Source: an uncultured Leptolinea sp.
GTDB taxonomy: Bacteria; Chloroflexota; Anaerolineae; Anaerolineales; Anaerolineaceae
Reading direction: 5' to 3'
Assembly (NCBI GenBank): GCA_903828565.1
Contig: CAIKMQ010000048.1
Span: 1 to 58,603 of the forward strand
DNA length: 58,603 nt
Below the pieces are notes generated by a model, which was not told where the DNA came from, did not search any database, and saw only the letters and a list, made by a program, of their open reading frames with translations. How positions within the stretch are numbered: position 1 is the first letter of the stretch; every line of letters starts with the position of its first letter. Below, piece by piece: positions 22,504 to 31,474 of this stretch. A program made the position numbers and the translations under genes.

Positions 22504-22956
22504 ATGGAGCGAACATTAATACTGATCAAACCAGATGGCGTTCAGCGTGGACTTATCGGCGAGATCATTAAAAGATTGGAAGCACGTGGATTAAAGATTA
22601 TTGGCGCAAAATTCATGCAGGTTGATGAGAAATTAGCTTCCACGCATTATGCCGAGCATATAGGAAAACCCTTCTACCCCGGGCTGATGCGATACATTTG
22701 CTCCTCTCCGGTTATGGCTATGGCCTGGGAAGGCCGGGATGCGATTGCCATTGTACGGCAAATGATGGGTAAAACCAACCCTGTCGAAGCGGCACCGGGA
22801 ACTATCCGCCATGACTTTGCCATGATTACCAGCAGAAACCTGACCCATGCCTCAGATTCACCTGAACGTGGTGAGGTTGAAATTGCTCTATGGTTCAAAG
22901 CGGAAGAATTGGTAACCTGGGATAGAACAGCTGATTCTTGGATTTATGATCTGTGA
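22504..22956 (+). CDS. ndk: Nucleoside diphosphate kinase
   Basis: Ndk transfers phosphate between nucleoside di- and triphosphates through a phospho-His. The 150-aa protein shows ERTLILIKPDGVQRGLIGEI, the catalytic His in NLTHASDS (the usual motif is NxxHGSDS, here Gly is Ala), and the conserved end ERGEVEIALWF. Two in-frame ATGs lie at 22498 and 22504; GGAG ends one base before the first, so the second is likely the true start. Confidence 0.95.
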   Translation: MERTLILIKPDGVQRGLIGEIIKRLEARGLKIIGAKFMQVDEKLASTHYAEHIGKPFYPGLMRYICSSPVMAMAWEGRDAIAIVRQMMGKTNPVEAAPGTIRHDFAMITSRNLTHASDSPERGEVEIALWFKAEELVTWDRTADSWIYDL

Positions 22957-22973
22957 AAATTCTACGAAATTCC

Positions 22974-23002
22974 TTGACGCCAGCACACCATAGTGATAAT
23001 AT
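22974..23002 (+). promoter_or_regulatory. Promoter of tRNA-Asp
   Basis: TTGACG (22974-22979) and TAATAT (22997-23002) are 17 bp apart and end 12 bp before the tRNA. GATAAT at 22995 is an alternative -10 with a 15-bp spacer. Confidence 0.65.
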
Positions 23003-23014
23003 TCATGCCGTTGG

Positions 23015-23088
23015 GGGGGCGTGGTGTAGCGGTCTAACATGCGGCCCTGTCAAGGCCGAGATCGCGGGTTCAAATCCCGTCGCTCCCG
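23015..23088 (+). tRNA. tRNA-Asp, anticodon GTC
   Basis: The 74-nt sequence folds with acceptor GGGGGCG/CGCTCCC (one G-T pair) and discriminator G73 as expected for Asp. The anticodon stem CGGCC... encloses CTGTCAA, so the anticodon is GTC. The T loop is TTCAAAT. CCA is not encoded. Confidence 0.95.
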
Positions 23089-23091
23089 CTA

Positions 23092-23117
23092 AAAAGACTG
23101 TGAAAGCAGTCTTTTTT
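23092..23117 (+). terminator. Terminator of tRNA-Asp
   Basis: An 8-bp stem (23093-23100 with 23107-23114) is followed by a T run, 4 nt after the tRNA. Confidence 0.85.
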
Positions 23118-23143
23118 CTTTTAACCATTTACGTGCGCCGTTA

Positions 23144-23152
23144 TGGTATACT
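23144..23152 (+). promoter_or_regulatory. Extended -10 promoter of the helicase gene
   Basis: TGG directly precedes TATACT (23147-23152), giving an extended -10. Transcription would begin near 23159, about 80 nt before the ATG. Confidence 0.55.
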
Positions 23153-23192
23153 TATTGGTAGATTTACGTCTATGATCTTGCAAGGTTTACAC

Positions 23193-23221
23193 AGCCCTGC
23201 CAGCAAAGGTAGGGCTTTTTT
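23193..23221 (+). terminator. Leader terminator (possible attenuator) before the helicase
   Basis: A 9-bp stem (23193-23201 with 23208-23216; one G-T) is followed by six T (23216-23221). It stands between the extended -10 promoter and the ribosome binding site (GGAGAG) of the helicase, with only 17 nt to the ATG. No gene precedes it after the tRNA terminator, so its natural role is attenuation of the helicase transcript. Confidence 0.7.
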
Positions 23222-23238
23222 GTTGGAGAGAAATAATT

Positions 23239-24945
23239 ATGTCGTCATCATTTGTTGAACTCGGATTATCCCCCGAATTATTAACTGCGGTCACAGAATT
23301 AGATTATGCCGCACCCACTCCCATCCAGGAACAAGCTATTCCATCCCTTCTGTCAGGTAGGAATGTGGTTGGCCAGGCACAAACTGGAACGGGTAAAACA
23401 GCCGCATTCATCCTGCCTTTATTGCAGCTTCTGGATAAACCCAGGGATGCTGCGCGAGCTTTGATCCTTGTTCCCACGCGGGAACTGGCATTGCAGGTAT
23501 CGGATGCCGCCCGGTGGTTGGCAGCTCATACCCAGCTGCGAATTACCTCTGTCTATGGTGGTCAATCCTATACGATCCAGATCCGCGCACTTAAAAAGGG
23601 AACTGATATCGTGGTGGGTACTCCCGGCCGCATTATGGACCTGATGCGTCAGGATATTCTGCATCTATCATCCGTCATGCATGTGGTTCTCGATGAAGCC
23701 GATGAAATGCTGGATATGGGTTTCTCGGAGGACGTCGACACTATTCTTTCAGCAATACCGGCAGAACGTCAGATTGCCCTCTTCTCCGCTACCTTCCCGC
23801 GAGCAGTTCAAGCCCTGGTCAATGCCCATGTGCCAAACCCGGATCATATCCGGATCAACCCTTCCGCAGTCACAGTATCAGATACCGAGCAGAGATATGT
23901 GTACCTGCGAGAGGAGAACAAACTCGCCGCGTTGACTCGTTTGCTCGAAGTTGAAGGCATACAATCTGCGTTAATCTTCACCCGCACCAAGGTCCGTGCC
24001 CAGGAAATATCAGATGCATTGAATAGCCGCGGAATACCTGCTGAGTCTTTACATGGCGATCTGAACCAGGCGCGCCGCGAAACGGTTTTACGTCGCTTAC
24101 GCTCTCGTGAGATTTCCATCCTGGTGGCTACGGATGTAGCCGCGCGTGGATTGGATATCGACGATCTGTCTCATGTGATCAACTTCGATATGCCTCAGGA
24201 TCCTGAGGATTACGTCCACCGCATTGGGCGCACTGGCCGTGCCGGTCGGAAGGGAATTGCCCTGACCTTTGTCACTGGCAAAGAAAAACATCGCCTTCGC
24301 CAGGTGGAAAACTTCACCAAGAAAGCTTTGAATGAAGTTCCCATCCCCAGTATCGAAGAGATCCGTTCTCACCGGGATCAGAAGTACATGGACCGGCTCG
24401 TGCAGGTTCTTGAGGAAAATGCTCTTGCGCCCGAATTATCGGCTGTCAAAACCCTCGGGGAGAAGTTTTCGCTGGAAACTATCGCTGCCGCAGCCATCAA
24501 GCTCTCGAGAGAAACTGAACCTGAACTACCCCGCGAACAATTTGTAGAACCGGCCCGACCGGCATTCCATGTCATCGAAGAACCCCCAAAAACTCATGGC
24601 AAGTACAGATCTGAGAATGCAGCCATGAAAGGCTCAAAGATCCGCAGTGATAAAAAACAATCATCCAGGTATGCCGGCTCTCCCCCAACCGAACACGGGC
24701 ATGAAGATATGGTCAGGCTGCGCTGCAATCTGGGGCATCGTCATGGCATTCGCCCCGGAGATATCGTTGGAGCCATTGCCAGCGAAGTCGGTATCCCCGG
24801 AAAATCTATTGGGGAGATCAAGATCCAGGATGATTATTCCTTCGTGGATGTGGACCGCCGCCATGCGAGCAAAGTATTGCGCCAATCCGCGGGGAAATAC
24901 GCTGTCCGCGGGAAAACCATCATCTTGACCAAAGATAGCAAGTAA
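23239..24945 (+). CDS. deaD: DEAD-box RNA helicase with DbpA-type RNA-binding domain
   Basis: The 568-aa protein has the full DEAD-box set: Q motif (APTPIQEQAIP), AQTGTGKT, PTRELALQ, VVGTPGR, VLDEADEML, FSATFP, FTRTK, ATDVAARGLDIDDLSHVINFDMP and HRIGRTGRAGR. A linker of about 200 aa is followed by a C-terminal RRM-like DbpA domain (LRCNLGHRHGIRPGDIVGAIASE, FVDVDRRHASKVL). Such helicases remodel rRNA and help in the cold. ATG at 23239 has GGAGAG 7 nt upstream. The leader terminator suggests self-regulation or a temperature response. Its family name (deaD/csdA) is assigned by domain layout. Confidence 0.92.
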   Translation: MSSSFVELGLSPELLTAVTELDYAAPTPIQEQAIPSLLSGRNVVGQAQTGTGKTAAFILPLLQLLDKPRDAARALILVPTRELALQVSDAARWLAAHTQLRITSVYGGQSYTIQIRALKKGTDIVVGTPGRIMDLMRQDILHLSSVMHVVLDEADEMLDMGFSEDVDTILSAIPAERQIALFSATFPRAVQALVNAHVPNPDHIRINPSAVTVSDTEQRYVYLREENKLAALTRLLEVEGIQSALIFTRTKVRAQEISDALNSRGIPAESLHGDLNQARRETVLRRLRSREISILVATDVAARGLDIDDLSHVINFDMPQDPEDYVHRIGRTGRAGRKGIALTFVTGKEKHRLRQVENFTKKALNEVPIPSIEEIRSHRDQKYMDRLVQVLEENALAPELSAVKTLGEKFSLETIAAAAIKLSRETEPELPREQFVEPARPAFHVIEEPPKTHGKYRSENAAMKGSKIRSDKKQSSRYAGSPPTEHGHEDMVRLRCNLGHRHGIRPGDIVGAIASEVGIPGKSIGEIKIQDDYSFVDVDRRHASKVLRQSAGKYAVRGKTIILTKDSK

Positions 24946-25092: not shown

Positions 25093-25803
25093 ATGTACAC
25101 AAGATCGACATCTACACAAAAACCAGATTCGGTAAGATCTGCTTTTCAAACCTTTCCATTTTTTATCTCTCTGAAAACGGAAACCCAGGATGCGATCCTG
25201 AACCTCGCCATTCCACGCCACTTCTCCTCAGGCCAGGTGATCTATCTTGAAGGAGAACCGGCTGAGCATGTCTTCATCCTGACCAAAGGCTGGGTGAAAG
25301 CGACCAAGATAACAAAAGAAGGACGGGAACAGGGATTAATGTTCCTGAAGCCGGTGGAGATCTTCGGCGATATTGCTGTCTTTGCTGGCACCAGTTACCC
25401 CGGCACAACTACTGCGCTTGAAGATGCGGAAACATTAGCAATACCAGCTCCGGCTTTGCTCAAATTAGTTACCAGTCATCACGATCTGTCTGCCGCTGTG
25501 ATCCAAAGGCTCAGTCAGCGCGTTCTGGGTTTTATCGATCTTGTGGAAGATCTTTCACTCCGCAATGTGGAAGCTCGGTTGGCTTGCTCTCTTTTACGAA
25601 ATGTGCAAGTAGTAGATGGGCAGAATGTCGTTCCACGCCGCGATTGGACCACATTGGACCAGATGGCTGTACGCCTGGGAACAGTTCGTGATGTCATTAG
25701 CCGCGCCATGAAAAATCTTGAAACGGCTGGATTGATCCGCGTTGAGAAGAACACTATCTACCTGCTCGATCCCATAAAACTGGCTCAACGCGCAGAAGAA
25801 TAA
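25093..25803 (+). CDS. Crp/Fnr family transcriptional regulator
   Basis: The 236-aa protein has a cyclic-nucleotide-type sensor beta-barrel (RHFSSGQVIYLEGEPAEHVFIL, KGWVKATKITKEGREQGL, EIFGDIAVFAG), a dimer helix, and a C-terminal winged helix (TLDQMAVRLGTVRDVISRAMKNLETAGLIRVEKNTIYLLD). It has a single Cys (LACSLL), so it cannot hold the 4Fe-4S cluster of FNR. It is more like NO- or heme-sensing (DNR/NnrR) or effector-binding members. AGGAG precedes the ATG. The palindrome at 25878-25907 and the putative redox operon start right behind it, so it is probably their local regulator. Confidence 0.85.
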   Translation: MYTRSTSTQKPDSVRSAFQTFPFFISLKTETQDAILNLAIPRHFSSGQVIYLEGEPAEHVFILTKGWVKATKITKEGREQGLMFLKPVEIFGDIAVFAGTSYPGTTTALEDAETLAIPAPALLKLVTSHHDLSAAVIQRLSQRVLGFIDLVEDLSLRNVEARLACSLLRNVQVVDGQNVVPRRDWTTLDQMAVRLGTVRDVISRAMKNLETAGLIRVEKNTIYLLDPIKLAQRAEE

Positions 25804-25877: not shown

Positions 25878-25907
25878 TTTGAAATGAATATTATTATTCA
25901 TTTCAAA
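25878..25907. promoter_or_regulatory. Perfect 13-bp inverted repeat, candidate Crp/Fnr operator
   Basis: TTTGAAATGAATA (25878-25890), a 4-bp spacer TTAT, and the exact reverse complement (25895-25907). The TTGAA/TTCAA outer halves recall the TTGAT-N4-ATCAA style of Crp/Fnr sites. TATTAT (25889-25894), a good -10, is at the centre, so a bound protein would block RNA polymerase. The palindrome is 25 bp before the ATG at 25932. Confidence 0.6.
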
Positions 25908-25931
25908 AATCTTGAATGCAACGGAGGAGTA

Positions 25932-26726
25932 ATGAAAAACACGCATCGCATTGGAGTTGGACTATCCATTTTTGGGATCCTGGCCGGCCTGCTCTTTTTC
26001 TACCTGATCACATTACAATACAATCCTGTGATCGATGCACATAAGCTAATGGGGCGGATAGACGAAGCCACCTCAGTCTCTATCACATTTGCTGTTCTGG
26101 GATGGTTAGGAATCTCAACCTGTGCAATTTGGGCGGTTGTCCTCTACGGTTTTGCTCAACGCCAGAAATGGGCCTGGTTCTGGGGTGTTGTCGCATCCAC
26201 TATTCAGCTTCTGACAGGCTTCTTCCCCGCCATCCCGGCATTGGATGGTGACCTCTCTGCCCCGACCCTGATCGTATTCGCGATCGCTGCTGTGTTGTGG
26301 TTTTCCATGCTGTGGATAGGAAAAGTTAAAGGGAAGATTATTGCATTAAGCTTCATTGCCGGTTTGGCTTTCGTCCTTACCTTTATTGATGGCGTTGCAC
26401 CCATCTCTAAATTTGTTTTCTCAAAAAGCTTCTCGTTTCGGAACGGTATGTACGTGATGACCCAACAGGTGAACTGGTGGGGCGCTGCTGCCTGGGCGAT
26501 CTTTATTTTTGCCTTGGTCGGAAAGAAGAATTGGGCCCTTCCCGTTGGGATCTTTGCAGCCGTTATGTCTATTGTCGCTGGATACCCGCTGGGCATTCAC
26601 AACGCTTTATTTGAAGCTCATCGCTTCTCCATGTTCCTGCCTGCTCCATTAATAAGTACTGGTTTGCTGGTTTACTTGGCATTACCGGGAACGCGGCGAA
26701 TGGTGGAAGCTTGGAACGCGGAGTAG
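25932..26726 (+). CDS. Seven-TM membrane protein, first gene of the putative redox operon
   Basis: The 264-aa protein has about seven TM helices, with no recognised family. Features include LITLQYNPVIDAHKLMGRIDEATS after TM1, a cluster of Trp in WFWGVVASTIQL, VMTQQVNWWGAAAWAIF, and GIHNALFEAHRFSMFLPAP near the C-terminus. The few His are scattered and form no clear heme motif. The start at 25932 has a strong GGAGG 6 nt upstream; the frame open from 25884 starts within the operator and is rejected. A 15-bp hairpin and 157 bp separate it from the NorB-like gene. Confidence 0.65.
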   Translation: MKNTHRIGVGLSIFGILAGLLFFYLITLQYNPVIDAHKLMGRIDEATSVSITFAVLGWLGISTCAIWAVVLYGFAQRQKWAWFWGVVASTIQLLTGFFPAIPALDGDLSAPTLIVFAIAAVLWFSMLWIGKVKGKIIALSFIAGLAFVLTFIDGVAPISKFVFSKSFSFRNGMYVMTQQVNWWGAAAWAIFIFALVGKKNWALPVGIFAAVMSIVAGYPLGIHNALFEAHRFSMFLPAPLISTGLLVYLALPGTRRMVEAWNAE

Positions 26727-26883: not shown

Positions 26884-28359
26884 GTGAATATTTTAAAATC
26901 CCGATTGGATTATCTTTTTTCATCTACTAAAGGGTTAGTGCTGGTAGCCATAGCAATGATCGCTCTAACCTCCGCCATATGGGGGATGTTATCCGGTCCT
27001 TTGGCTGAAATGGGCATCCGCGAGGTGGTCATTAATACCCTGGGTATGGATATGGTTCCTGCAGAACGAGAAGGCAGAATCATCATACTTTACCATGCTA
27101 TTGCTATGGCTGTAGTTGCCATTGAAACCTATTTGATCAATGGGCTCCTGAAGATCAAACCTCTTTTGAAAACAATTATCAATGGATTGATCACAGTTGG
27201 TTACATTGTAACAATGATTTTTGGTCTTGGTTTTGCTTATTTCGGGCACAACTGGGCTTTTCATGGATTGTATATCGCAGGTTTGACACTGATCTTCGCC
27301 GCAGGAGTACTTTTGGTCATCGCCCTCTGGCCGTGGAACAAGGAAGTTCGGCAACCAGATATGGATTATGCGCGGACGAGAGGCGGGTTGGATCTTGAGC
27401 GTGTAGCATTCTTTGCAACAGCCGTTACCACTGTCATTTCAGCGCTGTTTGGTGCAATCCCCGGTTCATTCTTCGGTAATGGATTCGAAGTGTTTCTGGC
27501 TGAGAACATTATCCGATTCCCTGAAAAATCAACCATGGAGTATTCCATTATCGGTCACCTGCATATCATGCTGGCTTTGATCGCCGTAATGATCACATTG
27601 ATCATTGGAAGATGGTTGAATTTCAAAGGCATCTTACATAAGATCGCCATGCCACTGATGATCCTGGGGACTATCATCTTGAATTTAGGCGTGTGGGGTG
27701 TCGTTACTCCAATGGAACCCATTGCGCACATGGTCATCTATGTCGGTGCGACACCATCCATGCTTGCAGCGCTGCTGCTGTTGATCTGGAGCTGGCGCAT
27801 GCTCATCCATAACGGCACGGCGAAATTCGCGAAACCGACCATACTTCAAAAGCTGAAAGCATTGGTTGAAGACCCCCTGAAATTCGGGCCAACCTGGCAA
27901 ATGTTATTCATGAATTTCTCCACAAGTGGTCTCGGCATATTCATGGCTGTCAAGTTGGATGAGATCTTCCGTGTATGGCCAGCCCGTGAAGAACGGATCG
28001 AATTGACCGGGCATTGGCACGCATTGTCTCTGGTGATTGCGACCATCATCCTGATGTACTATGGGGATATTTCCGGGCTAAAAGGTAAAGTTCGCCAGGT
28101 ATTTGGTTGGGCAATCATATTCTTCTCCGACCTCGCCCTCGCAGGAATAACCTTTTTTGAGATGAAACGGCTCTTTGTAACAGAAGCCGAACAACAACCT
28201 ATTGTCAATGGATTGATGTTGGCAGTCGATACAGGCCTTGCGTTCCTTTTGGTCCTACTCGCAACTTTGATGGTCTGGAGATTGATCGATCTCTTCAATA
28301 AGAACGGCCGTTGGTCCGAAGAAAAAGAACAGGAATTAGATCAGGAGGTGGTTTCATGA
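26884..28359 (+). CDS. 12-TM protein, divergent NorB/heme-copper oxidase-like
   Basis: The 491-aa protein has about 12 TM helices, as in heme-copper oxidase subunit I and NorB. Intramembrane His sit near the outer end of helices: H71 (ILYHAIAM, TM2), H225 and H227 (GHLHIMLAL, TM6), H282 (PIAHMVIYVGATP, start of TM8), and H377/H379 (TGHWHALSL, TM10). Their spacing (154, 57, 95, 2) tracks that of P. aeruginosa NorB His60, 207, 258/259, 347, 349. The HH pair is reduced to one His, and the NorB Glu211 position is Met. No CXXCH is present. GTG at 26884 has AGGAGG upstream. The family call is inference; a different 12-TM fold remains possible. Confidence 0.5.
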   Translation: MNILKSRLDYLFSSTKGLVLVAIAMIALTSAIWGMLSGPLAEMGIREVVINTLGMDMVPAEREGRIIILYHAIAMAVVAIETYLINGLLKIKPLLKTIINGLITVGYIVTMIFGLGFAYFGHNWAFHGLYIAGLTLIFAAGVLLVIALWPWNKEVRQPDMDYARTRGGLDLERVAFFATAVTTVISALFGAIPGSFFGNGFEVFLAENIIRFPEKSTMEYSIIGHLHIMLALIAVMITLIIGRWLNFKGILHKIAMPLMILGTIILNLGVWGVVTPMEPIAHMVIYVGATPSMLAALLLLIWSWRMLIHNGTAKFAKPTILQKLKALVEDPLKFGPTWQMLFMNFSTSGLGIFMAVKLDEIFRVWPAREERIELTGHWHALSLVIATIILMYYGDISGLKGKVRQVFGWAIIFFSDLALAGITFFEMKRLFVTEAEQQPIVNGLMLAVDTGLAFLLVLLATLMVWRLIDLFNKNGRWSEEKEQELDQEVVS

Positions 28360-29249
28360 AACGGATCTGGTTCGTGCTTGTTATCGTATCTCTTCTCCTG
28401 GCTGCCTGTACTCCTGTCGATCTTTCTGCTCCGGTGCCATCGGTTGATACCGGCATAAATCCGAATTCCTGGGCGCTAATACCTGCAGGTGATTTTTACT
28501 ACGGACAATACAATACAGTTGAATATACGCCGGCTTTCGAGATCATGATTACCGATGTAACAACCAGTCAATATGCAGATTACCTCAATGCTGCCTTATC
28601 CTCAGATGCAATAAAAATAGGTGAATGGGTGATCACAGGGTACTATCCCGGAGACACTTATACAGGAAAGAAACACGAGGAGCGCATCGACGCGGGAGAT
28701 TGGCTGTATATCCCTTTGAATGACCCATCGCAACACATCTTATTTGATGGCACTTCGTTTTCGCCAGAACAGGGCTACGAAGATCATCCCATGACAATGG
28801 TCACCTGGTTTGGAGCGCTCGGTTACTGTGAGTATTTCGGTTATCGCCTACCAAGTGAAAAGGAATGGGAGAAATCAGCCCGTGGTACCGATACCCGCGC
28901 TTACCCCTGGGGTGATGATATCCAACGATCGAACGCAAACTATTACGCCAGCCGGGATCCATTCGAGAACATGAAAACTTTCGGCTCTCGTACCACTCCT
29001 GTGGGCTTTTTCAACGGAACAATCTATCCGGATGGATATGCCACTCTCGACTCCCGCTCCCCTTACGGATTGTTTGACATGGCTGGTAATGTTTGGCAGT
29101 GGACGGCTGATATCTACGAAGGGATGCATTATCGTTTCTTGCGTGGTGGATCAAAGGATACCTATGAAATGGACCTGCGTATCTTTGTCCGGAACAATGC
29201 CACTCCAACCTACTTTAGCCCTGGTGTTGGTTTTAGATGTGTAAGGTAA
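28356..29249 (+). CDS. Lipoprotein with SUMF1 (NirV-like) domain
   Basis: A lipoprotein signal ends at LLLAAC (Cys about residue 18). The mature part is a SUMF1/FGE-like domain: WALIPAGDFYYG, HPMTMVTWFGALGYCEYFGYRLPSEKEWEKSARG (in parts), YPWGDD, SPYGLFDMAGNVWQWT, FLRGGSKD and the end GFRCVR. In true formylglycine enzymes a Cys pair near the RGGSW segment is catalytic; here that stretch has none, so the domain is probably a binding or structural module. NirV, near nirK in denitrifiers, is a related accessory protein. The ATG overlaps the NorB-like stop by 4 nt, which ties it to that protein. Confidence 0.8.
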   Translation: MKRIWFVLVIVSLLLAACTPVDLSAPVPSVDTGINPNSWALIPAGDFYYGQYNTVEYTPAFEIMITDVTTSQYADYLNAALSSDAIKIGEWVITGYYPGDTYTGKKHEERIDAGDWLYIPLNDPSQHILFDGTSFSPEQGYEDHPMTMVTWFGALGYCEYFGYRLPSEKEWEKSARGTDTRAYPWGDDIQRSNANYYASRDPFENMKTFGSRTTPVGFFNGTIYPDGYATLDSRSPYGLFDMAGNVWQWTADIYEGMHYRFLRGGSKDTYEMDLRIFVRNNATPTYFSPGVGFRCVR

Positions 29250-29289: not shown

Positions 29290-30153
29290 GTGAACCGCAT
29301 CACCCATCATATCAAAGAGTACGCACCACTTTTGAAAGGCCTACAAACCAGTTTACTGGTTTTCACAGGCCTGGCCGGTTACATGAGTGCCCGCTGTCCT
29401 GTTTTGAACTTGCCAACTCTGGCCGGCTTGTTTTTCTCTCTAGCAGCATCCATCAGCGGCAGTACCATCCTCAACATGTGGTGGGATCGTGACATCGATG
29501 CCCTGATGCAACGAACCTGCAATCGTCCGTTGGCGTCAGGGAAGATCCCGCCCCGTCAGGCTCTGGTGGTTGGACTTTTACTCTCCTTTCTGGGTGTTGC
29601 AGGTGCGTTTCTGCTAAATCCGCTGACAGGGTTGATCATTTTTTCCGGCCTTTTCTTTGATGTGGTCATATATACCATCCTGCTCAAGCGTAGGTCCTGT
29701 TGGAGCATCCTGTGGGGAGGAATTTCAGGTGGTATGCCGATACTTGCGGGCAGGGTATTGGCTGTGGGAGCACTGGATTTGGTTGGTGTATTGTTGTCAC
29801 TCGGTATCTTGTTTTGGATACCCACGCACATCCTCTCCTTCAGTATCCGAAATGCATCAGATTATCAACGTGCAGGTGTCCCCACTTTTGTCTCTGCTTA
29901 TGGTATTCATGCTACGCGGCTAACCATAGCTATCGCCAGTATTCTCGCTTCTATAGCGATGGTGGGTGCTGCAATCGGTATCGGTATCTCCTGGGGATAT
30001 CTCCGCTTGCTGGGTGTTCTATCTATAGGTTTACTGATCTACTCAGTAGCCGAATCTGTAAAACCTACAGAAAGAGGAGCGTTTGGCTTATATAAATTTG
30101 CTTCTCTTTATATGCTTTCTTCTATGTTCGTTATGTTTTTCGGGGGAGTTTAA
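29290..30153 (+). CDS. ctaB: Heme O synthase-like prenyltransferase (CtaB/CyoE type)
   Basis: The 287-aa UbiA-superfamily protein has about eight or nine TM helices. The prenyl-diphosphate motif reads NMWWDRDIDALMQRTCNRPL with GKI after it, which is the CyoE/CtaB version (N-x3-D-x-DIDA-x-M-x-RT-x2-RP). The second motif, IPTHILSFSIRNASDYQRAGVPTF, matches the CtaB stretch ending in DYxxAGVPM. Heme O synthase farnesylates protoheme for oxidases with heme O or A. Its presence beside a NorB/oxidase-like protein supports a heme-containing partner. GTG at 29290 with GGAG upstream. The next ATG overlaps its TAA. Confidence 0.85.
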   Translation: MNRITHHIKEYAPLLKGLQTSLLVFTGLAGYMSARCPVLNLPTLAGLFFSLAASISGSTILNMWWDRDIDALMQRTCNRPLASGKIPPRQALVVGLLLSFLGVAGAFLLNPLTGLIIFSGLFFDVVIYTILLKRRSCWSILWGGISGGMPILAGRVLAVGALDLVGVLLSLGILFWIPTHILSFSIRNASDYQRAGVPTFVSAYGIHATRLTIAIASILASIAMVGAAIGIGISWGYLRLLGVLSIGLLIYSVAESVKPTERGAFGLYKFASLYMLSSMFVMFFGGV

Positions 30154-30758
30154 TGCAATCTACAAAACTTGACCGAATTCTCTTTCTGGGAACCAGCTTA
30201 CTTGCTGCATACCAGGTAACAACCGGGATCGATAAACTATCACCCGGCCCGATCCTTGCCTTTACCATAGCATTTGGTATGCTGCTCCTCACTTCCCTTT
30301 TTTTTCTGATTTTCGGCCTGGACGGCTTTTCATCACCGATTCCGGGAGTGTCTTCCACCGTGATACCACTTTCCATGGGTTTAGGGTTGGTGCTGCAGCA
30401 TTTACCCAAATATGGCATACACTACCTGGTTTATACAGTCATTGGCTTGATACTTGTCCTGCTCACCAGATCGACCCGGTATCAGCTGCCCGTACACACG
30501 ATCACAGTTGCGGTTGTTCATGGTATTGCCGGATTTACGATCTGTATTATTCCATCTGCCATTGTGATCCTCGGACGAATGCAATTATGGTACATATTCG
30601 TGGCCATAGGAGGTGCACTTATCGGCCTGGGAGGTATCTTTTTCAGTATGTCTCGCTTCGAACCGAAAAAGTTACCCTTGAATGTCAATCTTCACTTCTT
30701 CCCGGCCCTACTATTCCTGATGACGCTTTGCTATGTGCTTGGCTTCCATTTCGGTTAA
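30153..30758 (+). CDS. Membrane protein of the redox cluster, unknown
   Basis: The 201-aa protein has about six TM helices and no recognised family. His residues occur in KYGIHYLVY, VHTITVAVVHGIAG and the ending FHFG, several near helix ends. It overlaps ctaB by one base (TAATG), showing tight coupling. It could be a small subunit or assembly factor of the NorB-like complex. Confidence 0.6.
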   Translation: MQSTKLDRILFLGTSLLAAYQVTTGIDKLSPGPILAFTIAFGMLLLTSLFFLIFGLDGFSSPIPGVSSTVIPLSMGLGLVLQHLPKYGIHYLVYTVIGLILVLLTRSTRYQLPVHTITVAVVHGIAGFTICIIPSAIVILGRMQLWYIFVAIGGALIGLGGIFFSMSRFEPKKLPLNVNLHFFPALLFLMTLCYVLGFHFG

Positions 30759-30793: not shown

Positions 30794-31474
30794 ATGTCTT
30801 CCGAACAGAAACTATCCAAATTCCTCCGTGCCATTGGTGTCATCCTGATGTCTATAACTGCCGGTTTCACCTTGCTGGGTGGAGCAGGCACAACCTGCGT
30901 CGCCCTCAACCCAACCGGCTTTAGCAGCAGTATGGCCGCACTGGCTTCCATGCAATGGTTGTACATTTTCTTTGTGCTTTCCGGTGTAGCCCTGGGGATT
31001 CTGGGTATCCGTGCTGTCATCGAGCTCATCCGGGGTAAACCAAACGCTTACAGGTTTTCTGTAGTTATCCTGGTAATTGGAACCATTTTGGGTTTAGTAC
31101 ACATGGTTACCTCCCGTGCCTTGCGCGGAAAATCGATGCCTGTGGATGCAATTGTCTATGTAACTGCATTCACTTTGGTTGTTTTCCTGATTTTCAAAAT
31201 ACCTGGGATATGGAAAATTGTTGATTTCTCCCGCGGGAAAACACCAGAAAATAAAACTGCAGGAGGGGCTGCATCCATTCTGCTCGGTATCCTTTCAATT
31301 TCCATCCAAAACCTGATGGGGGCAACCCATACGTGGGGTGGAATTAACTATGCCGATGCATTCCATCTATCCATGTGGATCATTGGAATTACCTGCTTCA
31401 TCACTGGGCTAGCTTTGCTCTCACCAATTTCTTTAAACCGGTTCCTCCGCCATCAATCTGTCAAAACACAGTAA
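30794..31474 (+). CDS. Membrane protein of the redox cluster, unknown
   Basis: The 226-aa protein has about six TM helices. It contains GATHTWGGINYADAFHLSMWIIG near the C-terminus and GGAGTTCVALNP in the first external loop. No family is recognised. AAGGAG lies 8 nt before the ATG. It is the last gene before the terminator at 31497-31525, so the operon probably runs from 25932 or 26884 to here. Confidence 0.6.
   Translation: MSSEQKLSKFLRAIGVILMSITAGFTLLGGAGTTCVALNPTGFSSSMAALASMQWLYIFFVLSGVALGILGIRAVIELIRGKPNAYRFSVVILVIGTILGLVHMVTSRALRGKSMPVDAIVYVTAFTLVVFLIFKIPGIWKIVDFSRGKTPENKTAGGAASILLGILSISIQNLMGATHTWGGINYADAFHLSMWIIGITCFITGLALLSPISLNRFLRHQSVKTQ

Follow-up and report, generated by a model that had tools for sequence, protein, structure and literature searches.

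The window, by which we mean the whole stretch of 58,603 nucleotides that was analysed, holds a gene for a membrane protein that we assign with high confidence, on the strength of predicted structures, to the heme-copper oxidase (HCO) fold, as subunit I of a branch hidden from sequence methods. We consider it quite likely that this protein is loaded with heme O from the CtaB encoded in the same operon, and have similarly good confidence that it has no canonical heme/metal-B binuclear centre; that all three statements hold jointly seems to us moderately probable. The HCO fold, as predicted, is known; the rearranged ligand plan would be new. The gene and its neighbours are the following:

25093..25803, + strand: Crp/Fnr-family regulator; 32 of 97 loci have a same-strand homologue at most 6 kb away
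25884..26726, + strand: membrane protein; 55 of 97 loci have a same-strand homologue at most 6 kb away
26884..28359, + strand: gene of the HCO-fold membrane protein, 491 aa, predicted to consist of three repeats of four helices, with 12 long TM helices in all
28356..29249, + strand: FGE-fold (SUMF1-like) lipoprotein, in ATGA overlap with the HCO-fold gene; C18 (lipobox), C158, C295
29290..30153, + strand: CtaB/CyoE heme O synthase, the genome's only match above the TIGR01473 cut-off
30153..30758, + strand: membrane protein, H123 conserved
30794..31474, + strand: membrane protein, C35, H103 and H179 conserved

The 97 loci are those that hold the gene, the window's own locus excluded, and some of them represent one genome taken from two collections. 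The open reading frame at 26884-28359 begins with GTG and has AGGAGG just upstream; the genome measures 2.2 Mb at a completeness of 99%. Elsewhere in the window, a tRNA-Asp (GTC) gene at 23015-23089 lies within a mechanically called ORF (22953-23258).

AlphaFold2 prediction on 43 sequences gave a model with 12 long helices, a pLDDT of 82 and a pTM of 0.88. Foldseek returned 299 matches to this model at E ≤ 10, none of them at E ≤ 0.001; the best was a ba3 oxidase (E 5.4e-3, probability 1.00), and unrelated membrane proteins ranked lower, at smaller probability. A second look at the Foldseek matches with VIA-align found HCO-type entries in all 50 of the matches listed, headed by cbb3 (8smr_E) with Z 22.9, 401 residues aligned and an rmsd of 4.0, and including cNOR at Z 20.8 (4xyd_A) and 19.7 (3o0r_B). 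A model of the relative L074 (pLDDT 75, pTM 0.80), built on ten rows of the first alignment and hence a subset of it rather than independent, gave 50 listed matches that were again all of HCO type, with Z 22.7 to cbb3 and 21.2 and 20.6 to cNOR. Both predicted models display the 12-TM subunit I fold of the HCO superfamily, and the NorB/HCO-like fold proposed in a sequence-only reading of this gene is borne out by them in all 50 matches listed for each.

Sequence comparison returned no such kinship. The window protein had no match in Pfam, NCBIfam or the PDB sequences and did not match PF00115, the HCO family; none of 45 family members scanned matched the COX1 Pfam family, and a family profile found no match among the PDB sequences. 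Scanning 43 members against Pfam brought up 17 families, each in 1–7 members and with a best E of 0.00098 (one DUF2214 match); these scattered families, weak and in few members each, were taken as chance. Local HMM-HMM comparison by hhalign with NorB-, FixN-, gNOR-like- and COX1-anchored alignments gave P values of 0.04–0.14, which are not significant. The FixN and NorB anchors are proteins that we take to be those of S. meliloti, recognised by motif in a record without annotation, and COX1_L152 and COX1_L155, which were in the wrong frame, were excluded from the HCO set. In the literature we recognised no description of the protein family.

Peptide patterns of the window protein used as query retrieved 91 relatives, from which 78 distinct loci were kept; all were titled Chloroflexi or Anaerolineae or belong to genera that we take to be Chloroflexota. 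It was solely by this pattern search that other phyla were covered, the search for deeper relatives being confined to Chloroflexota, where 28 of 400 genomes had matches at E ≤ 1, 11 of which, short and weak, were discounted. The gene is present in 23 of the 101 genomes searched (own included), in 13 of 48 genomes of one order, at E ≤ 0.1 in 69 of 396 genomes of the class (including three weak matches, E > 1e-3) and in 17 of 400 genomes of the phylum Chloroflexota. This patchy distribution suggests loss or transfer. A plasmid search for relatives gave no match, and the gene was not found in G001 (85% complete), the one congeneric genome searched besides that of the window.

The window protein contains ten His (71, 122, 127, 225, 227, 252, 282, 309, 377 and 379), seven of which are conserved throughout the family. 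In a set of 87 distinct sequences, window included, from which partial hits, identical rows, L077 and L079 had been dropped, H71, H127, H282, H377 and H379 occur in 87/87 and H225 and H227 in 86/87 (one gap), while 90% of them keep H122, 93% H252 and 1% H309. The set was extended to 107 rows by 20 further sequences, namely 9 divergent ones (33–37% identity) and 11 more, 8 of them divergent, which makes 17 divergent sequences; the partial L143 was left out. All seven His, that is the six named in the sequence-only reading, each found where it had been placed, together with H127, are kept in 106 of the 107, some only ~33% identical, which puts their conservation far above chance; the HxH formed by H377 and H379 in helix X is retained to the same extent, and relatives have not lost the named His. 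L059 (1239-2534), with a gap over H225–H227, is the sole exception and reflects an assembly error or a broken gene. M229 is likewise kept in 106/107, and R65, R211, E207 and E370 are invariant or nearly so. The positions of the seven His are given below, where first and second register denote equivalence to H377 and H379:

27094..27096, + strand: H71, in helix II and there probably in the second register; by pseudo-C3, on the pore A side
27262..27264, + strand: H127, at the start of helix IV, the equivalent of H282 in its own repeat
27556..27558, + strand: H225, helix VI, first register (= H377), without canonical counterpart
27562..27564, + strand: H227, helix VI, in the second register, where canonical HCOs have their metal-B ligand
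27727..27729, + strand: H282, start of helix VIII
28012..28020, + strand: H377-W378-H379, HxH of helix X

Repeats 2 and 3 are homologous. Aligned by hhalign, they gave a P value of 5e-7, with H225 on H377 and H227 on H379, against a background of 0.055–0.57 in 18 hhalign comparisons of repeats with neighbour families; repeat 1 against repeats 2 and 3 gave 0.055 and 0.073, within this background. In an ungapped profile scan, the offset of 152 between helices VI and X ranked first of 462 (17.6, median -14.3), was still first with the seven His masked (11.1) and beat 154, the sole alternative tried, in 100/100 bootstraps. As canonical controls we used three HCO profiles, with FixN, COX1 and a gNOR-like gene as their anchors, the FixN- and gNOR-like-anchored ones coming from one shared 11-sequence alignment. 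In canonical HCOs, the helix-II His is equivalent to the first His of the HxH in helix X (rank 0 in each profile) and the helix-VI ligand to the second (FixN, rank 1; COX1, rank 2 with a shift of one residue; gNOR-like, rank 0). Since H225 stands in the first and H227 in the second register, it is H227 and not H225 that occupies the metal-B register, and the earlier assignment of H225 as metal-B ligand with H227 as an extra His is not supported.

For helices II and X, the best offset was 308 (rank 1 of 462), which equates H71 with H379 and places it in the second register. This offset prevailed over 306 and 310 in 100/100 bootstraps with His unmasked; with His masked, 310 won in 84/100, 308 in 16/100 and 306 never. 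Residues 67-95 of helix II follow 308, not 306 (unmasked). Speaking against the second register, the stretch 58-72 favours 306, the first register for H71 (5.2 vs -2.4), and offset 156 between helices II and VI is weak (rank 8 of 462). Offsets 308 for III-XI and 156 for III-VII are local optima when all sequences are used (ranks 6 and 5), but not within the Anaerolineales-type subset. The predicted ends of helices II, VI and X at 88, 244 and 396 and starts of III, VII and XI at 93, 250 and 401 agree with the offsets 156/152/308. For helices IV and VIII, offset 155 (H127 = H282) was the best of 460, a rank lost with His masked. H71 had been read as the helix II ligand: it does lie in helix II, and judged by these offsets it is probably in the second register, two residues off the low-spin heme position.

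Helix VII ends in V-W-G-V-V and lacks the His pair. The proposal that this pair is reduced to one His is an alignment statement that the register does not support, and H282, which had been taken for the helix VII ligand, lies four residues into helix VIII (278-311) in the model. In P. aeruginosa NorB numbering, Glu211 was said to be replaced by Met; counted from H227, its position corresponds to residue 231, with 75 A and 27 T among 107 sequences, so that, given the H227 register, A or T replaces the Glu of the NorB FeB site in 102/107. Three of the six His in the HCO signature, as given in PMC3413370, are in canonical register (H227, H377 and H379), as assessed by sequence register rather than coordinates. 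With half of the sextet in place and both helix-VII His gone, a canonical binuclear centre is not to be expected, and filing the protein as NorB is not supported. What stands of the altered metal centre proposed before is a binuclear centre that is changed or missing; its residue equivalences are not supported, and the accompanying alternative, a heme-only or non-catalytic member, comes nearer than a changed binuclear site.

HCOs have pseudo-threefold symmetry, with pores named A, B and C, and one of the three pores is empty in known HCOs; residues of the first register face the preceding pore and those of the second register their own arc. On this symmetry, H225 and H127 would be directed into the pore left empty in known HCOs. 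The position of the conserved His off the usual active-site plan suggests that the heme groups are placed differently. In what we infer about heme number, heme type and pore, the His may, by pseudo-threefold symmetry, form two similar sets, with H225, H71 and H127 in pore A, H377, H227 and H282 in pore B and H379 directed toward pore C, an arrangement that we regard as possible, just short of an even chance. Five of the six threefold inner-helix ligand positions carry His (H71, H225, H227, H377 and H379), the only missing one being the helix-II first register (L69). Heme ligands might on this basis occupy all three pores and make the protein a near-symmetric three-heme-o relative of HCOs, which we hold to be unlikely.

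CtaB lies on the same strand within 6 kb downstream of the gene in 84 of the 97 loci, and in 67 of the 68 with at least 1.5 kb of downstream sequence; in the exception, L026, the gene is present and CtaB was not detected. By the same limits of strand and distance, the FGE-fold lipoprotein lies downstream in 89 of the 97, and in all 87 loci with at least 700 b of downstream sequence. CtaB of the window scores 213 bits against a TIGR01473 cut-off of 210.3, and D66, D68, D70 and R75 of its Asp-rich motif are conserved in at least 90% of 66 sequences; two further TIGR01473 matches in the genome are weak. Among the Cys of the lipoprotein, only C18, C158 and C295 reach 90% (84 sequences). FGE catalysis uses a Cys pair, which is not conserved here, so the lipoprotein is presumably not a working formylglycine enzyme. 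The invariant His together with CtaB in the operon make it very likely that the protein binds heme, and its mode of working is likely that of the predicted HCO-type heme protein.

The genome itself has no Pfam PF00115 match, and thus no Pfam-detectable HCO. PF00115 matched (E ≤ 0.001) in 48 of 101 genomes; among the 53 without it, own included, CtaB (E < 1e-30) was present in 10/10 genomes with the gene (the gene of G025 being a fragment and two of the CtaB matches partial) and in 4/43 without, of which two (L159, L160) resemble cox operons by eye. CtaB of the operon type is kept without the HCO-fold gene in three genomes, G007, G027 and G055, the last with only a weak PF00115 match. The loci with operon-type CtaB and no HCO-fold gene are L156, L157, L158, L166 and L167, with a Crp gene alongside in L158 and the 201-aa membrane protein in L166; these are perhaps remnants after gene loss. 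No hidden relative was found next to CtaB in the 12 regions where the gene had not been found, several of which resemble ordinary cox operons by eye, while others hold an orphan CtaB. The genome of the window encodes CydA and has no ferrochelatase (PF00762) match; with CydA and CtaB present, heme would be imported or made by another route.

The surroundings of divergent members bear on function. CtaB directly follows the gene in three divergent genomes (L217-L219), and in L139 a CopD-like protein, whose CopD match is just under the Pfam cut-off, lies between the gene and CtaB. A COX1-family gene adjoins divergent members at five places:

L135:10319-11944: COX1-family (gNOR-like) gene
L136:3573-5198: COX1-family (gNOR-like) gene
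L140:1599-3476: COX1-family (gNOR-like) gene
L142:4496-5221: COX1-family (gNOR-like) gene
L220:6073-7686: COX1-family (gNOR-like) gene

These neighbours, Pfam-tested in L136 and in L118, which represents the same place as L135, have Asp in place of the helix-VI metal-B His (register from the L135-anchored set), which we assume to be the substitution that the name 'gNOR' denotes. A ~140-aa protein without Cys precedes the COX1-family gene in L136 and L220, the one in L136 being without a Pfam match. Divergent members with a COX1-family neighbour are also near NDH-2, DUF438-hemerythrin or Crp-like genes, a DUF438-hemerythrin protein occurs in L221, and an ODP/flavodoxin (flavodiiron-like) protein stands beside L117/L134; in the surroundings examined of L138, L141 and L222-L224, no NO/O2-related neighbours were seen. 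The COX1-family, flavodiiron-like and hemerythrin neighbours favour NO/O2 chemistry, and a candidate activity on NO or O2 is probable from this gene context.

Biological reduction of O2 and NO proceeds mainly through HCOs. As to substrate and electron donor, we infer a mechanism in which (i) paired His would hold two six-coordinate hemes that pass electrons, (ii) a heme open on one side, in the simplest case that on H379, would bind and reduce NO or O2, (iii) this reduction would take place in microoxic or nitrosative stress and (iv) the FGE-fold lipoprotein would be the outer-face partner of the HCO-fold protein. As a whole, this mechanism is the one that we favour, but it is put forward tentatively, at less than even odds. 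The same core would be shared by an HCO-fold cytochrome with several hemes that serves electron transfer alone, say between quinol and a partner on the outer side, and performs no gas chemistry. Such a carrier would account for the incomplete metal-B His set, for two His pairs that suit six-coordinate hemes and for the constancy of the downstream lipoprotein, but among the divergent members examined a lipoprotein homologue was found beside L225-L227 only, several divergent members have the NO/O2-related neighbours described above, and H379 would be left without an evident partner; we judge it somewhat unlikely.

A NOR-like enzyme with a changed binuclear site is improbable. Here H71 and H379 would bind the low-spin heme, the reactive heme would be carried by H377 and metal B by H225, H227 and H282, in keeping with the HCO fold of both models, with the first register of stretch 58-72 and with the hhalign comparison with NorB, which at no significance sets H225 on the helix-VI FeB ligand. 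However, H225 and H227 (i,i+2) are equivalent to H377 and H379, which face two different HCO pores, helix II follows offset 308 over 67-95, H282 is on helix VIII in the model and H127 is given no role. A circularly permuted HCO, with repeats shifted by one, would have its active site in pore A (H225 proximal, H71 and H127 near metal B) and a bis-His heme in pore B (H377, H227). Helix VI of our protein indeed matches canonical helix X best, with H225 on the first His, for the FixN-, NorB- and gNOR-like-anchored profiles (three of four comparisons), and canonical helix X is second best for the COX1-anchored profile; the VI-like second register of H71 agrees. We nevertheless consider permutation quite improbable, because the helix-matching scores are low, helix X would in that case pair not with canonical helix II but with the one that follows canonical X (HFW motif), Z is ~23 even when the structures are aligned in their natural order, and H379 and H282 are left over. 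That the protein binds no heme and its His serve metal transport or structure, as the predicted status of heme binding and the CopD-like neighbour in L139 might suggest, is highly improbable in view of the CtaB linkage across divergent lineages and the HCO fold.

The predicted HCO-fold heme protein shares with cbb3 CcoN/FixN, its best VIA-align match, the 12 TM helices and the helix-X HxH, but its His sextet is out of register, there is no sequence match, and neither CcoO nor CcoP is among the seven window genes scanned. With cNOR NorB it likewise has the fold and the helix-X HxH in common, whereas it lacks the helix-VII His pair, carries H71 probably two residues off, has A or T at 231 and no Glu four residues after the helix-VI ligand, and has no NorC among the same seven genes. 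To our knowledge, HCO families have one common ligand plan with single substitutions. The E. coli bo3 oxidase operon cyoABCDE, as described in one source, includes a heme O synthase (PMC9145763) and so resembles the present operon in combining a subunit-I-fold gene with heme O synthase; here, in contrast, the genes scanned include no recognisable subunit II or III, and the COX1 Pfam family does not match subunit I. eNOR, a NOR-type HCO, is reported from Chloroflexi, the phylum of the window protein, and in that account (PMC8756737) is recognisable as HCO and has a cupredoxin subunit II; no such subunit was found among the genes scanned here.

A family that shares the predicted HCO fold without detectable sequence kinship, and whose ligand plan differs and is more symmetric, would provide a test of how fold and cofactor sites evolved. 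It would add to the Anaerolineae a hidden candidate NO/O2 enzyme that family models miss, and the three-heme arrangement, if true, would be a living model of the origin of the HCO fold by triplication.
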